From Massiliimicrobium timonense (GTDB taxonomy: Bacteria; Bacillota_I; Bacilli_A; Erysipelotrichales; Coprobacillaceae), in assembly GCF_002160865.1 (NCBI RefSeq), contig NZ_NFLJ01000025.1, positions 1 through 44,023 on the forward strand: a stretch of DNA of 44,023 nt. Reading direction: 5' to 3'. A program made the position numbers and the translations under genes. The notes beneath the pieces are model-generated. The model did not search any database, was not told the DNA's origin, and saw only the letters and a program-made list of their open reading frames with translations. Shown here piece after piece: positions 7,519 through 21,571 of the stretch; position 1 is the first letter of the stretch, and each line of letters starts with the position of its first letter.

Positions 7519-8862
7519 TTACTTAAAATCATGAACAATCTCTTTAAAAACCTTTCCTCTTTCCTCATAGCCACTAAATTCATCATATGAACTTGTTGAA
7601 GGTGACAACAAAACAATATCCCCCTCTTTAGCAATTTCCTTGGCTTTCATCACAGCATCTTTCATATGATCCACAACATATGTTTGAGGACAGTGCATTT
7701 CTTTTGCAAATCTTTCCTTAGCTTCACCAAAACAAATTAATGACGAAATACAAGATTGATAAGTTGACATCTCAGATAAATCCAACCCTTTTTCATGACC
7801 ACCCATCAATAAAATCACAGGCTGATCAAAAGCCTTCAAAGCAATAATAGCAGCATCTGTATTCGTTGCTTTAGAATCATTATAATATTTCACACCTTGA
7901 TATTCTCTTACAAATTCTATGCGATGTTCAACTCCCTGAAAAGCAGCTAAACCTTGATGAATATCTTCCAGTGACACATGACTTAAAGCACAGGCAATAA
8001 TCGCAATCATCATATTTTGAATATTATGTTTTCCAACAATCTTGATTTCATTTAAATCAATCACATGCTTTCCCTGATAATAAATAGCCTGATTTTGAAT
8101 CATACAATCTGCTTCTTTGCTTAACGAAAAAGTCACTCTTTTAGCAGATACTGGATATTTTGTTAAATAAGATTGTAAAATGTCATCATCTAAATTTTCA
8201 ATAAAATAATCATCCTCTGTCTGATTCATATAAATACGTGTCTTTGATGTATAATATTCATCTAAAGAAGCCATATAATCTAAATGATCAGGTGTTAAAT
8301 TAATAATCGTAGAAATATGCGGATGAAACTTAGCAATATCTAGCAACTGAAAATTAGACATCTCCAAAACAATATCATACCCACTATGATTCATGAGCTG
8401 ATTCTTTAATACTAACGAAGAATATGGAGTTCCTACATTCCCTGCCAGACAAACCTCGTGTTTTGCCTGTCTTAAAATCGCATCAATTAATGTGACTGTT
8501 GTTGTTTTTCCATTTGTTCCTGTAACCGCAATATAATTTTGCATTTGAGCCACTTGATAAGCCAGTTCAATTTCAGTGTAAACAGGAATTCCTCTTTCTT
8601 TTAATCTCAAAACAAAAGGTTTATGATAATTAATACCCGGATTTTTGACCACAAAATCAAAATCTCTTTCAAACAATTCATCAGGGTGTCCCCCCACAAT
8701 CATTTCAATACCTCTTGCCAGATATTCATCATAACAATCAATATGATCCTTTGCTGCAAATTCATTCACTGTAATCGTGGCATGCATTGCATCAAGCAGT
8801 TCAACTGCAGCCCTGCCACTTTTAGCCAATCCTAAAACTAAGACTTTTTTCCCTTTTAACAT
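7519..8862 (-). CDS. murD: UDP-N-acetylmuramoylalanine-D-glutamate ligase MurD
   Basis: MurD adds D-glutamate to UDP-MurNAc-L-Ala using ATP in the cytosol. The ATP-binding loop VTGTNGKTTT is at 113-122. The central Mur ligase domain contains NLTPDHLDYM, and the C-terminal domain has YYNDSKATNTDA and LLSPSTSSYDEF. The 447-aa length is normal. It begins 1 bp after the mraY stop, and its ribosome site lies in the end of mraY, indicating coupling. A terminator follows. Confidence 0.97.
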   Translation of the reverse strand: MLKGKKVLVLGLAKSGRAAVELLDAMHATITVNEFAAKDHIDCYDEYLARGIEMIVGGHPDELFERDFDFVVKNPGINYHKPFVLRLKERGIPVYTEIELAYQVAQMQNYIAVTGTNGKTTTVTLIDAILRQAKHEVCLAGNVGTPYSSLVLKNQLMNHSGYDIVLEMSNFQLLDIAKFHPHISTIINLTPDHLDYMASLDEYYTSKTRIYMNQTEDDYFIENLDDDILQSYLTKYPVSAKRVTFSLSKEADCMIQNQAIYYQGKHVIDLNEIKIVGKHNIQNMMIAIIACALSHVSLEDIHQGLAAFQGVEHRIEFVREYQGVKYYNDSKATNTDAAIIALKAFDQPVILLMGGHEKGLDLSEMSTYQSCISSLICFGEAKERFAKEMHCPQTYVVDHMKDAVMKAKEIAKEGDIVLLSPSTSSYDEFSGYEERGKVFKEIVHDFK

Positions 8863-14695: not shown

Positions 14696-15736
14696 TTATA
14701 AGTCATCTTCAATGGCCGCTGATTTTGCATAAGCTGTTGATTTTGCTTCAAAAAAATCTGTTTTAATCAGATTCGCCTGACTATATAAACTTACCCATTG
14801 CATTGATTCTGGTTCTTTATCATAACCTTCAAACAAAGGTTCAAAATTTAAAGATGTCGCACGTAAATTTCCCAAGTAATGAATATAATCACTGACCATC
14901 GTCATTGTTAAACCTTCAATACGATCACCCAATACATACTGTGCCCACGCTATTTCTTCTTCTACACCACGAAGAATCATACCACGATAAACCTCTTTTA
15001 ATTCATCTGTAAAAAGCTGTGGTTCTTCTTTCTGGAGTTCTAAAATGATATTTCTAAATAACCAGAGATGTGTATTTTCATCACGATTAATATAACGAAT
15101 TTCCTGTGTTGATCCGGGCATTTTTCCCATACGACCTAAATTATAAAAGAACATAAACCCACTATAAAAATAAATACCTTCTAAAATATAATTCGCCATT
15201 AACGTTTTCATCAGATGAAAAGAATCTGGACTATCAATAAAAGCATTGTACTGTTCACCAATAAACTGATTACGTTTGAGTAAATGCTCATCATATTTCC
15301 ATTGATAAAGAATTTCATCACGCTTTGCTGGGGAGCAAATTGTATCTAACATATAACTATAACTTTGTGAATGAACAGCTTCTTGAAATGCTTGAATCGT
15401 TAAACAGAGATTAATTTCATTTGCTGTTATATATTCACCAATATGTGGTAAGTTGGCTGTTTGTAAAGAATCCAAGAAAACAAGAAAAGATAAAATTTTA
15501 TCATAAGCTGTTCTTTCTTCATCCTTCAACAAACGATAATCTTTTATATCCTGTAAAAGATTAATTTCTTCTGGAATCCAGAAATTATTCATTGCTTGAC
15601 GATACCAGTCATGAACCCACTGATATTTCATATGATTAAAATCATTTAAATTCGTCGTATTCCCATTAATCATACGACGTTTTTGCACATCAATATCTCC
15701 CTTTTCATTAAACAATGCTTTTGTTTTTAATTCCAT
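14696..15736 (-). CDS. nrdB: Ribonucleotide reductase beta subunit, class Ia
   Basis: The R2 subunit holds the dinuclear metal centre and tyrosyl radical used by the alpha subunit to reduce NDPs. The 346-aa sequence keeps all ligands: D89, E119 and H122 (EAVHSQSY), E186 (LEGIYFYSGF), E220 and H223 (RDENTHLWLF). The radical tyrosine is Y126. C-terminal acidic IEDDL is the tail that docks on NrdA. TAAGGAGG overlaps the nrdA stop and places the start 9 bp after it. No nrdI or nrdH is adjacent, which favours class Ia over Ib; metal identity cannot be read from sequence. Confidence 0.94.
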   Translation of the reverse strand: MELKTKALFNEKGDIDVQKRRMINGNTTNLNDFNHMKYQWVHDWYRQAMNNFWIPEEINLLQDIKDYRLLKDEERTAYDKILSFLVFLDSLQTANLPHIGEYITANEINLCLTIQAFQEAVHSQSYSYMLDTICSPAKRDEILYQWKYDEHLLKRNQFIGEQYNAFIDSPDSFHLMKTLMANYILEGIYFYSGFMFFYNLGRMGKMPGSTQEIRYINRDENTHLWLFRNIILELQKEEPQLFTDELKEVYRGMILRGVEEEIAWAQYVLGDRIEGLTMTMVSDYIHYLGNLRATSLNFEPLFEGYDKEPESMQWVSLYSQANLIKTDFFEAKSTAYAKSAAIEDDL

Positions 15737-15745
15737 ATTTCCTCC

Positions 15746-18001
15746 TTATGCACTGCATGATTCACATTCTTCAATCTCTAGAGATTGACTTCTCACATAA
15801 TAAAGCGTCTTAACATGACACTCACTTGCTAAAATATATAAATCCAAAAGTTTTCTAAAAGTAAAATCCTGTGTCATATAAATATTCACAGACTGTGACT
15901 GGTCAATATGACGCTGACGAATACCTGCCGCTTGAACAATCCAGTTTTGGTCCATATAATGAGCATTTTTATAAAGCCAGAACGTTTTTGGATTCAAATC
16001 TGGAGCTACACGACGCATCATGCTACCTTTCTTTTCTTCAATAAAAAATTTCTTCATGATAGGATCAACTGCCGCCGTTGTGCCAGCAATGATAGATGTA
16101 GATGACGTTGGAGCAATTGCCAAACAATATCCATTACGTAACCCATACTGATGAATGTCCTTCTGTAATTTTTGCCACATTGAAGAATGATAATGACGCT
16201 TTTGAAAATAAAGTCCGGTATCATAATCACTCCCTTGAAAATAAGCATAACTTCCCTTTTCTCTAGCCAGTTGACAAGATGCTTCTAATGTGTAGTAATT
16301 GATTTTTTCATATAACTGATCAACAAACTGTAAATGTTGTTCACTTTCAAAGGGAATGCCTTTTAAACTCAATAAATGATGATAACCACTTGTTCCTAAA
16401 CCTATGGCTCGATATTGATGGTTCGTTATTTTGGCATAAGGCAATGGATAATAGTTTAAATCAATGACATTGTCTAAAGCTCTCACTGTTGTTTGAATAA
16501 CATGTTGTAGTTCCTGTTCATCATCTACATTGATTCTTCCTAATGTCAACGAAGCCAGATTACATACCACAAAATCACCTGGTTTTGTCTTTTCAACAAC
16601 AATACTTTCTCCATTGACTTCAACAATTTCTTTCCCTAAAAATGTCATAGCTTTCATATTTTGAGCAATTTCAGTACATAAATTACTACAATAAATCATT
16701 CCTTGATGATGATTAGGATTCATTTCATTGACTTCATCACGATTAAAAGCAAAAGGTGTTCCCGTTTCCACAAGTGAACGAATAATCAACCTCACAACTT
16801 CCTTAACACTCATAACTCTTTTAGAAATACGTGGATCTTGAACACATTCGTCATAACGTTGTTCCCATTCTTGACCATAACTATCTTCAAGGTGATAGCC
16901 CTTCACTTCATAAATTTCATGAGGGCACATCATATACCATGAAGCATCAAGATTTTCCTTAGCCAATTTCCAAAATAAACGTGGAAAACAAACTGCCGGA
17001 AAAATATCATGAGCTTTCATACGATCATCTCCATTATTTGTTCTGATCTGTAAAAATTCTGGTAAATCTTTATGCCAGACATCTAGATAAACAGCGACAG
17101 CTCCTTGTCTGACACCTAACTGATCTACAGCAATCGCTGTATCATTAACAAGCTTCAACCAGCGTACAATTCCTCCAGCAGCTCCCTTATAGCCACGAAT
17201 AGAGCTTCCATTTGCACGGACTTTTCCAAAATATAAGCCCATACCTCCACCATATTTAGAAACTTGAGCAAAATGATCTAAACTTTGATAAATACCTTCC
17301 AAAGAATCTTCCACAACATCAATAAAACATGAACTCATCTGATGGAATGGCTTTCTGGCATTCGCCATTGTTGGTGTTGCCATAGTTATTTTTAAAGTAC
17401 TTAATACATCGTAGAACTGTTTAGCCCATTGCACACGTTTTTTTTCTTTTATAGCAAGATGCATCGCTATGCCCATAAACATTTCCTGAGGTGTTTCTAA
17501 TATCTGATGATGATAATCATGAATCAGATAACGTTTATATAAAAGATCAAGCCCACTATGATTAAAGAATTCATCACGTTCATCATCAATATAGGTCTCT
17601 AATTCTTGAATATCTTGTTTATTGTAATGTTCTAAAATATAAGCTCCATAATATCCTTCTTGAGTCAAATATTTGATTTTATCATAAAAAGTCAAAAGAT
17701 GAAGCTTTTGTATATGACTTTCTACTTGTTGATGAATATCAAAAGCCAAAAATCTTCCCGCAATCATCTCCCATTGAGGTTCTTCGACACTAATCATTTC
17801 ATCACTAACTAAAATAAAGATTTCTATGGCTTCATGAAGCGTCATTGATTCATGATAATAAGCCATCCATTTGTCATAAAGACGTTTGAAATGATCATTA
17901 TCTTGAAAAAAGTCCTGATTCATTTTTTCTAAAGTAGATTGAAATTTTGAATCATGAAAAGTTTGATCAAAAAATTTAATGATTTGTTCATTTGTATTCA
18001 T
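15746..18001 (-). CDS. nrdA: Ribonucleotide reductase alpha subunit, class I
   Basis: This is the catalytic R1 subunit, converting ribonucleoside diphosphates to deoxy forms. Active-site residues are visible: C225 (QMSSCF), N440/C442/E444 (CSNLCTE), C480 (VVCNLASL), radical-path tyrosines Y734/Y735 (TLYYVRSQ) and the C-terminal redox pair C746/C749 (CESCSA). The start at 18001 is chosen over an in-frame GTG at 18010 that abuts AAGGAT. The first ~90 residues align in position with the ATP-cone of E. coli NrdA, but the usual V.KRDG signature is missing. It forms an operon with nrdB. No NrdR box was recognised upstream. Confidence 0.95.
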   Translation of the reverse strand: MNTNEQIIKFFDQTFHDSKFQSTLEKMNQDFFQDNDHFKRLYDKWMAYYHESMTLHEAIEIFILVSDEMISVEEPQWEMIAGRFLAFDIHQQVESHIQKLHLLTFYDKIKYLTQEGYYGAYILEHYNKQDIQELETYIDDERDEFFNHSGLDLLYKRYLIHDYHHQILETPQEMFMGIAMHLAIKEKKRVQWAKQFYDVLSTLKITMATPTMANARKPFHQMSSCFIDVVEDSLEGIYQSLDHFAQVSKYGGGMGLYFGKVRANGSSIRGYKGAAGGIVRWLKLVNDTAIAVDQLGVRQGAVAVYLDVWHKDLPEFLQIRTNNGDDRMKAHDIFPAVCFPRLFWKLAKENLDASWYMMCPHEIYEVKGYHLEDSYGQEWEQRYDECVQDPRISKRVMSVKEVVRLIIRSLVETGTPFAFNRDEVNEMNPNHHQGMIYCSNLCTEIAQNMKAMTFLGKEIVEVNGESIVVEKTKPGDFVVCNLASLTLGRINVDDEQELQHVIQTTVRALDNVIDLNYYPLPYAKITNHQYRAIGLGTSGYHHLLSLKGIPFESEQHLQFVDQLYEKINYYTLEASCQLAREKGSYAYFQGSDYDTGLYFQKRHYHSSMWQKLQKDIHQYGLRNGYCLAIAPTSSTSIIAGTTAAVDPIMKKFFIEEKKGSMMRRVAPDLNPKTFWLYKNAHYMDQNWIVQAAGIRQRHIDQSQSVNIYMTQDFTFRKLLDLYILASECHVKTLYYVRSQSLEIEECESCSA

Positions 18002-18022
18002 TATCTTCACATCCTTGTAGGC

Positions 18023-18977: not shown

Positions 18978-19010
18978 AAAACGCATCATCGTGCGTTTTT
19001 TATTTTTTAT
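18976..19010. terminator. Bidirectional terminator between the metal exporter and EF-G-like genes
   Basis: 10-bp stem AAAAAACGCA/TGCGTTTTTT (18976-18985, 18992-19001) with a 6-nt loop and a T-rich tail on the plus strand. The A tract gives a T run on the other strand. It serves two convergent genes. Confidence 0.8.
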
Positions 19011-21549
19011 ATTTATTGACATCTTCCAATAAAAATTCATGACTTTGCGGTTGTTTTCTTTGAAATTCCTGAAAACCATGTTGTGCCATTGCTTCCACTT
19101 CTAAAGCCAGTTCACGTGAAGACATACGACGAGCACCTCGTCCAATCACAATAGATTGTTCTAAAGCATCCGATGTTGCGACAACAACACGATATTCACT
19201 GGCAAGTTGATGCGTCACACGTTCAATATACATATCCGCTGTCTGGGCTTCTTTTGTATAGACGACATGAACATTATGACGTTTTTCCTGATGTCCCAGA
19301 TTTTGTTTCACTTGATAAGCATCAAACACAATAATTAATACGCATTGTTTATACCCTTGATAATTTGCTAAAATATCAATCAAACGTTCACGAGCAACTG
19401 CTAAATGCGTCTTTGCAAGTTCTTTGAGTTCAGGCCACGAATGAATCACATTATATCCATCCACAAGCAGACATTCTGGTTTCATCTGTACCTGCATAGA
19501 AGCTTCATAAGCAGGTGTTCGATAATAATCATCAGCCAGGCGACGTTTCACAGGTCCATAAGTTCGTTCAAAAATAGCATCCAGTTCTTCATCTTCATTT
19601 TGATATGATTTGAATTCTTGAGATATATTCTGACTTTTTTTGCTTTTTGTATATTGATAAGGAAGATGCATATAGTTTTCAACATCCTGCCACTTGACAT
19701 AAAAACCAGCTCCATGTTGACAAAATACAGAACCTGTTGGATATTTTTGATCTGTTTCACTATCATAATGTTTGTCTTGAATGACTTCAGTAGAATTATG
19801 ACAAGGAAAATATCCCTTTAATGAACAAGTCATACGACCTTTTCCTTTTGTCAAAGCGATGATTTCCTGTTGATAATCTTGTAGACACGCAACAGGTCCT
19901 TGCCCATATAAATCAATTCTATCTCCATTGTCTTCCATTGTCACTTTTGTCTGTTTCTTTTCCATATCATAAAGAACACGACTTAAGGCTTCTTTAGGAA
20001 TTTGAATATGAATATCATAATAAGGTTCTAAAAGAATCGATTCTCCTCGCTTTAAACCATGACGAATCGCACGATAGGTTGCTTCACGAAAATCTCCACC
20101 TTCGGTATGTTTTTGATGGGCCTTTCCAGCCAGTAAAGTGATTTTCATATCTGTTACTGGTGCTCCTGTTAAAACTCCACGATGTTCAATTTCTTGAAAA
20201 TGTGTCATAATCAAACGTTGATAATGCAAGGGCAAAGTATCCGTTGAACACTGACTTTCAAAAACAAGACCACTGCCACTCTCTAATGGTTCCAGCAAGA
20301 CATGAACTTCTGCATAATGACATAAAGGTTCAAAATGTCCCACACCTTCAATTGGCTTGGCAATCGTTTCTTTGTATAAAATCTCACCATGATCAAAATG
20401 AACATCTTCATGAAATCTCTCACGAATCATATTTTGTAAAATCTCAATCTGAATTTCTCCCATTAATTGAATATAAATATCTTGTGTTTCAGGCATATAA
20501 GAAATATGTAAAGTCGGATCTTCCTGAGCTAAAATCTGTAATTTTTGCATCATCACATGTCGATCCGTTTGTGGTGATAAGACCATACGATAATTCATAT
20601 AAGGAACCATTACTGGCTGTATCGTTGTCTGATGATTGAAAGTCATACCCGGTAAAAATGCTTTTAATCCTTTCAAAGCCACAACATCTCCAGCTTTGGC
20701 TGTCATCATTAAGGTATATTTTTCACCATTATAAAGACGAATCTGATCGACTTTTTCATTTCCAATCACTTCTTTGACATGAATGGAACCACCTGTTAAT
20801 TTAACATGTGTCAAACATTGTCCTTGTTCATGAGTGACTTTAAAAACAAAACCATCTAATGTATCAGGATAAACTTTTTCTAAAGTATATTGATCTAACA
20901 TATCAAGAAATGTTTCAACCCCTTGATTTTTAAGGGCAGAGCCAAAGAAAACAGGAAAGATTTGTCTTTGTTGAATACTTTCTTGAATATGTTGAAGTGA
21001 AATCTTTTGATTTGTCATATATTCTTCTAATAATGTATCATTGACTAACGCTATATTTTCAAAAAGCTGATTTTCTGGTAAAGAAAAATCAATACAATGA
21101 TCATGATATTTTTGCGTTAATTCTAAAAGAAGTTCTTCTTGATGATAAGTTGTCTGATCCATTTTATTGACAAAAATAAACGTTGGTACATGATAATGCG
21201 CAAGTAATTGCCAAATTGTTTCACTATGTGATTGAATTCCATCCATCCCATTCACAACAATAATAGCATAATCTAATATTTGTAATGTTCTTTCCATTTC
21301 GGCTGAAAAATCAGCGTGTCCAGGTGTATCCATCAAAAGAAATTGCGTATTCTTCCACTCGAAATAAGCCTGTTTAGAAAAAATCGTAATGCCACGATGA
21401 CGTTCTTGTGCATCATAATCTAAAAAAGTATCTTGATGATCTACACGCCCTAATTGACGAATCTGCCCTGAAAGATATAACATGCATTCACAAAGCGTTG
21501 TTTTTCCAGCATCAACATGTGCTAATATACCAATCACTGTCTTTTTCAT
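19000..21549 (-). CDS. Tet(M)/EF-G-type GTPase fused to a Rae1/YacP-like NYN endonuclease domain
   Basis: An 849-aa two-part protein. Residues 1 to about 640 are an EF-G-like translational GTPase of the ribosomal-protection type: AHVDAGKTT (10-18), RGITI with T55, DTPGH (74-78) and NKMD (128-131). After a linker with the segment CQHGAGFYVKWQDVENYMHL comes a C-terminal NYN domain (about 692-835) matching Bacillus Rae1/YacP: LLVDGYNVIHSWPELKEL, YTKEAQTADMYIE and RRMSSRELALEVE. Candidate catalytic aspartates are D697, D743, D772 and D794. Rae1 cuts mRNA in the ribosomal A site; the GTPase part should bind the same site. Strong AAAGGAGG ribosome site. Tetracycline resistance is possible but not implied. 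Confidence 0.9.
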   Translation of the reverse strand: MKKTVIGILAHVDAGKTTLCECMLYLSGQIRQLGRVDHQDTFLDYDAQERHRGITIFSKQAYFEWKNTQFLLMDTPGHADFSAEMERTLQILDYAIIVVNGMDGIQSHSETIWQLLAHYHVPTFIFVNKMDQTTYHQEELLLELTQKYHDHCIDFSLPENQLFENIALVNDTLLEEYMTNQKISLQHIQESIQQRQIFPVFFGSALKNQGVETFLDMLDQYTLEKVYPDTLDGFVFKVTHEQGQCLTHVKLTGGSIHVKEVIGNEKVDQIRLYNGEKYTLMMTAKAGDVVALKGLKAFLPGMTFNHQTTIQPVMVPYMNYRMVLSPQTDRHVMMQKLQILAQEDPTLHISYMPETQDIYIQLMGEIQIEILQNMIRERFHEDVHFDHGEILYKETIAKPIEGVGHFEPLCHYAEVHVLLEPLESGSGLVFESQCSTDTLPLHYQRLIMTHFQEIEHRGVLTGAPVTDMKITLLAGKAHQKHTEGGDFREATYRAIRHGLKRGESILLEPYYDIHIQIPKEALSRVLYDMEKKQTKVTMEDNGDRIDLYGQGPVACLQDYQQEIIALTKGKGRMTCSLKGYFPCHNSTEVIQDKHYDSETDQKYPTGSVFCQHGAGFYVKWQDVENYMHLPYQYTKSKKSQNISQEFKSYQNEDEELDAIFERTYGPVKRRLADDYYRTPAYEASMQVQMKPECLLVDGYNVIHSWPELKELAKTHLAVARERLIDILANYQGYKQCVLIIVFDAYQVKQNLGHQEKRHNVHVVYTKEAQTADMYIERVTHQLASEYRVVVATSDALEQSIVIGRGARRMSSRELALEVEAMAQHGFQEFQRKQPQSHEFLLEDVNKYKK

Positions 21550-21571
21550 ATTGACCTCCTTTTAAAGAAAT

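Follow-up and report, generated by a model that had tools for sequence, protein, structure and literature searches.

A translational GTPase fused to a Rae1-family nuclease replaces free Rae1 in many Clostridia and Erysipelotrichia

Introduction

A locus of Massiliimicrobium timonense bears on how the nuclease Rae1 is recruited and admitted into paused ribosomes: in the window, the whole stretch of 44,023 nucleotides of contig NZ_NFLJ01000025.1 that was analyzed, a single gene joins a translational GTPase to a domain resembling Rae1. What is this protein, and does it stand in for the free nuclease? The original prediction, made from the DNA letters alone, was that the protein may enter the ribosomal A site by GTP-driven binding and cut the mRNA there, as a rescue factor for stalled or drug-bound ribosomes, and it named no reported function for such fusions.

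The architecture itself was published in 2015: Atkinson (PMC4342817) described Tet-subfamily proteins with a C-terminal YacP-like NYN domain in ten Clostridiales. A role in resistance was suggested there. The protein studied here has the same order, a Tet/EF-G-like GTPase followed by a YacP-like NYN domain in one chain. That work made no link to Rae1 or to A-site cleavage, whereas the present analysis reaches Erysipelotrichales and many more Clostridia, establishes the replacement of Rae1 and separates the group from Tet proteins by loops and score. What the present analysis adds is the pattern of replacement, a motif conserved in the linker and naturally occurring variants that have lost domains. 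No functional study of the fusion was found in the literature searched, a search without the main Rae1 papers (Leroy 2017, Condon 2018 and Deves 2023), of which Condon 2018 treats the distribution of Rae1 and may mention the fusion.

Results

Domain architecture of the fusion

The gene lies on the minus strand as an uninterrupted frame of 849 codons with an ATG start (Table 1). Its length was kept across more than 100 homologues, so the frame is no sequencing artefact, and the single GTPase–NYN frame that had been predicted was borne out. The GTP_EFTU, III, IV, V and NYN domains all scored above the curated Pfam cut-offs, with domain II a weak match, and residues 1–586 form a five-domain, EF-G/Tet-like GTPase. 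The conserved C-terminal extension that follows is common to unfused relatives, as seen by alignment with the L. salivarius protein and four other unfused GTPases. Cys and His residues in this region were retained at high frequency in 106 fused homologues (C583 in 93, C610 in 99, H612 in 90 and H628 in 101, none strictly invariant) and are a possible metal site. In the full-length model (pTM 0.64), the linker was mostly disordered, and the model does not fix how the two halves sit relative to each other.

Table 1 Features of the fusion gene, in window coordinates
Feature	Position	Strand	Residues and sequence	Basis
Fusion gene: translational GTPase, C-terminal extension, linker and Rae1/YacP NYN nuclease	19000..21549	-	849 aa	Single ORF, Pfam
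Ribosome-binding site	21553-21560		AGGAGGTC	Upstream of fusion ATG
GTP-binding domain	20884..21537	-	5-222; G motifs AHVDAGKT, DTPGH with His78, NKMD	Pfam GTP_EFTU 1.5e-52
EF-G domain III	20395..20574	-	326-385	Pfam EFG_III 1.3e-10
EF-G domain IV	20044..20385	-	389-502	Pfam EFG_IV 7.8e-21
EF-G domain V	19792..20034	-	506-586	Pfam EFG_C 7.9e-14
GTPase C-terminal extension	19666..19791	-	587-628; PCHN...SVFCQHGAGF...MH	Alignment with unfused GTPases
Linker, variable	19474..19665	-	629-692	pLDDT, mostly low confidence
Linker motif, conserved	19540..19593	-	653-670; DEELDAIFERTYGPVKRR	Pattern count, DSSP helix
Rae1/YacP NYN endonuclease domain	19027..19470	-	694-841	Pfam NYN_YacP 1.3e-50

The nuclease half belongs to the Rae1 family

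The C-terminal domain matched the Pfam NYN_YacP profile with 172 bits (cut-off 24.6) and aligned with Bacillus subtilis Rae1 (5mq8) at an E value of 6.7e-27. An AlphaFold2 model of the domain, for which 60 fused and stand-alone sequences were supplied, reached a pLDDT of 91 and a pTM of 0.83, and its three top PDB matches were Rae1 (5mq9/5mq8; E 2e-12 to 4e-11, TM 0.74–0.77). D697, G698, Y699, N700, D743, T765, D772, S793, D794 and Q798 were invariant in 106 fused proteins, and the acidic, catalytic-type D697, D743, D772 and D794 were also invariant across the 60 fused and stand-alone domains. Because fused homologues diverge down to 33% identity with the window protein, this invariance shows the active site to be under strong purifying selection. 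Judged by sequence and predicted fold, this half is a genuine member of the Rae1 family that keeps every catalytic-type Asp, in agreement with the original assignment. It shares with B. subtilis Rae1/YacP the NYN fold, these Asp residues and 38–40% identity over the domain (structural alignment); the B. subtilis nuclease is a free protein of ~170 aa, whereas the one studied here forms the C-terminal part of a GTPase chain that carries a linker motif. Rae1 is an accepted mRNA endonuclease of the A site (PMC12320835, PMC6613710).

The GTPase half forms its own subfamily

The fusion carries the G motifs, catalytic His and domains III–V of a translational GTPase of the EF-G superfamily. The G motifs and His78, predicted to be intact, indeed showed little or no variation across 106 fused homologues. 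The best structural matches of the GTPase fold were EF-G, with Z scores of about 40, compared to 31–32 for Tet(M). The five-domain fold is common to EF-G and EF-G2, but the fusion is without the EF-G domain IV tip sequence, and EF-G and EF-G2 are encoded separately in the same genome. With Tet(M) and Tet(O) it shares the domain order I–V, the C-terminal extension and the G motifs with catalytic His, although identity in structural alignment is only 20–27%. The best NCBIfam family, tet_protect, was matched with 384.5 bits, far below its cut-off of 775.

The two domain IV tip loops of the fusion, GHFEPLCHYAEVH and KAHQKHTEGGDFR, are unlike those of Tet(M) and EF-G, as judged against the organism's own EF-G, EF-G2 and Tet-type ribosomal protection protein. 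They are strongly conserved among fused relatives, in the forms GHFEPL(C/R)HYAEVH and KAHxKHTEGGDFR, and the domain IV residues H405, E407, H411, Y412, H416 and D486 were invariant in 106 fused homologues. Loop III, which in Tet proteins serves to displace tetracycline (PMC4750697), reads YSPVST...DFR in the organism's own Tet-type protein and is replaced in the fusion by HQKHTEGGDFR; the other tip loop reads HFEPLCHYAEVH. The Tet-type protein, of 640 aa and with the canonical YSPVST loop III, is encoded at G000:C26:54-1976 (L089 54-1976, minus strand), at a locus that also contains a large gene with repeated segments resembling one for a surface protein; the Tet-type gene may be part of a mobile element.

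With EF-G, EF-G2 and a Tet-type protein encoded separately and its loops distinct from theirs, the fusion GTPase constitutes its own subfamily and is probably no resistance protein. The score below the NCBIfam cut-off, the absent loop III and the separate Tet-type gene all speak against its assignment as a Tet resistance protein. The original label 'Tet(M)/EF-G-like' holds for the domain order, without making the protein a member of the Tet group.

A motif is conserved within a variable linker

Between the two halves, pLDDT fell below 50 at residues 637–652 and 665–687, and DSSP on the model gave a predicted helix at 652–664, in the region of the linker motif. The span from residue 628 to residue 694 ranged from 61 to 156 aa among 106 fused proteins. 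The motif reads D-[EK]-E-L-x-x-I-F-x-R-T-Y-G; a loose pattern of it occurred in 76 of the 106 linkers, whereas shuffled linkers would be expected to yield 0.3. All linkers descend from one fusion, so the weight of this count lies in the motif having stayed while the remaining linker changed.

The fusion replaces free Rae1

In the organism's own assembly (2.78 Mb, 99.6% complete), the fusion was the only NYN_YacP protein; tmRNA is also encoded. A DNA scan of 84,980 genomes gave at least 589 sites that encode the GTPase subfamily. Each of the best 80 sites included an NYN domain, in the same frame in 76 and in an adjacent frame in four, which may be split genes or errors. The closest named relative among the matches listed was an uncultured Massilimicrobiota (Erysipelotrichaceae).

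Whether stand-alone yacP is missing from genomes with the fusion had been posed as a check, and it proved to be missing: in every one of 49 further genomes that carry the fusion and were searched in full, the fusion was the sole NYN_YacP over the cut-off, one of them (G415) having a second match below it. Every one of the 38 over-cut-off NYN_YacP matches in a sample of the organism's own phylum belonged to a fused protein, to the split pair of G262 or to the short form of G095, with no plain stand-alone NYN_YacP among the 38. Around a further genome, G452, 229 of 398 genomes had an NYN_YacP match; among the matches listed, 21 lay in frames of 877–953 aa, while the rest had frames of 169–302 aa. 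Three of these neighbours had two matches, attributable to a duplicated free gene or to contig-end or weak fragments. A GTPase search of 199 genomes around G452 returned 13 fused proteins, each in a genome with one NYN, and two unfused proteins, in genomes (G624 and G644) that possess free Rae1. Free Rae1 and the fusion are mutually exclusive in every genome checked, and in many members of the Clostridia and Erysipelotrichia the fusion takes the place of the free protein. In two complete-looking genomes of the own phylum (G082 and G251), an unfused GTPase was found and NYN_YacP was not detected, which indicates that the GTPase can have a nuclease-independent role.

Origin of the fusion and domain-loss variants

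In a tree of 91 NYN domains, one branch divided fused from free domains (SH-aLRT 99), a topology compatible with a single fusion event. In the GTPase tree, four unfused proteins formed one clade and the L. salivarius protein fell inside the fused clade, so its NYN domain was most likely lost. Both trees were quick searches without bootstraps. The fusion appears to be ancient, to have arisen once and to have been inherited in a largely vertical manner. Full-length matches among plasmids were limited to two large replicons, leaving a viral or mobile origin unsupported. On the L. salivarius megaplasmid (L004 5529-7920), the unfused GTPase gene adjoins rpsN (S14) and a putative metal homeostasis gene, in divergent orientation.

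Natural variants have lost parts of the protein. A short form of ~600 aa occurs in two species of one genus, G095 (L072 7843-9627) and G871 (L261 3752-5563), the two proteins being 64% identical. It consists of the G domain, domains II and III, and then the linker motif and NYN; domains IV–V are missing, and domain IV is therefore not always needed. Two incomplete genomes of the same genus encode a free NYN protein with a linker-motif-like N terminus and no GTPase beside it (G876, 218 aa, L262 4426-5082; G872, 201 aa, L263 1588-2193), apparently a product of GTPase loss. Where the GTPase erodes in this genus, the nuclease and linker motif persist. In G262, the GTPase (L071 6027-8081) and NYN (8078-8518) are two genes with a 4-base overlap (GTG/TGA); either the gene has truly been split and translation of its parts is coupled, or one base was misread in sequencing.

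Gene surroundings

Clustering of the genes around 117 fusion loci revealed no conserved neighbours beyond close genera, and hence no pathway is indicated. Only 98 bp separate the fusion from a divergent ORF, and a promoter scan gave no convincing promoter and no evidence of an attenuator. Elsewhere in the window, at 14696-18010, two adjacent minus-strand genes resemble by eye the small and large subunits of ribonucleotide reductase.

Discussion

The domain make-up, the conserved active-site residues, the Rae1 fold and the replacement of free Rae1 were computed here, as was the single, old fusion. Since the fusion stands in for stand-alone Rae1, its activity is best taken to be ribosome-dependent cutting of mRNA in the manner of Rae1. 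The fusion is probably the organism's Rae1, acting on ribosomes and tethered covalently to a specialized EF-G/Tet-like GTPase that would deliver or gate it. The findings that could have told against a GTPase-borne Rae1 went the other way: the NYN fold was found, the frame was unbroken, no second NYN_YacP was present and the catalytic Asp residues were invariant.

When EF-G and Tet(M) are bound to the ribosome, their domain IV occupies the A site, where Rae1 is modelled. As both would be expected in the same place, simultaneous sharing is unlikely, which favors action in sequence or by tethering. The proposal of A-site entry followed by mRNA cutting thus gains from the two intact halves and from the replacement of Rae1, and it needs a hand-over, as domain IV fills the site. 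We infer ribosome binding, GTP dependence, A-site cutting and an order of events in which the GTP-bound GTPase half would bind paused ribosomes with a vacant A site, and the tip of domain IV, with its unique conserved His loops, would contact the decoding center. Upon GTP hydrolysis domain IV would let go, and the NYN domain, on its linker of ~65 residues, could then enter the A site or reach adjacent mRNA and cut, leaving the truncated mRNA to be cleared by tmRNA. This specific order of hand-over from GTPase to nuclease is tentative. Equally to be held as a conjecture is the fuller picture of a GTP-gated A-site nuclease, in which domain IV inspects paused ribosomes, GTP hydrolysis hands the A site to the tethered Rae1 and the linker motif serves as a docking element.

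A simpler arrangement would have the GTPase act as an independent translation factor, for instance in translocation or as a helper of paused ribosomes, with the fusion merely raising the concentration of an ordinary Rae1 at ribosomes and the two activities uncoupled. Unfused GTPases do exist, including those in the two genomes without any NYN_YacP; the megaplasmid-borne protein of L. salivarius has apparently lost its NYN from within the fused clade; and linkers can be as short as 61 or as long as 156 aa. Such uncoupling is nevertheless rather unlikely given that each of the best 80 among at least 589 sites keeps the fusion, that the fusion takes the place of stand-alone Rae1 in every one of the 49 genomes checked, and that the linker motif is conserved.

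Two other functions appear far less plausible than tethered Rae1 activity. A ribosomal protection protein against tetracycline or another antibiotic with an added RNase, as PMC4342817 suggests, would explain why tet_protect is the top NCBIfam match, why the order of domains and the EF-G/Tet fold agree and why some relatives carry a TetM-type annotation. We consider it very improbable: the score of 384.5 bits falls well short of 775, HQKHTEGGDFR stands where Tet loop III would be and the other tip loop reads HFEPLCHYAEVH, a canonical Tet-type protein is encoded in the same genome, the distribution is chromosomal and largely vertical, and the 98 bp to the divergent ORF leave little space for a tet(M)-type leader. 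For the same reasons of loop and separate Tet-type gene, the predicted role on drug-bound ribosomes is weak. Maturation or trimming of rRNA or tRNA, with the GTPase working in ribosome assembly, has in its favor that NYN/PIN nucleases cleave structured RNAs in other systems and that EF-G-like GTPases may work on subunits. It too is hardly to be expected, as the closest characterized relative, Rae1, is an A-site mRNA endonuclease with which the fusion has catalytic residues and fold in common. RNA maturation was first proposed for YacP-like NYN domains by Anantharaman and Aravind in 2006, as cited in PMC4342817.

A probable tethered Rae1 has consequences for annotation and for the biology of translation. 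Members of the group that bear a TetM-type tetracycline resistance label in gut bacteria are probably no resistance genes. That a natural covalent fusion has taken over from free Rae1 in many Clostridia and Erysipelotrichia suggests that a translational GTPase recruits the nuclease, and a single protein here would allow the predicted GTP dependence, ribosome binding and mRNA cutting to be studied together. We know of no earlier translation factor with a built-in mRNA-cutting activity; if the GTP-gated mechanism is true, the fusion would be the first such factor and the default Rae1 of many Clostridia and Erysipelotrichia.
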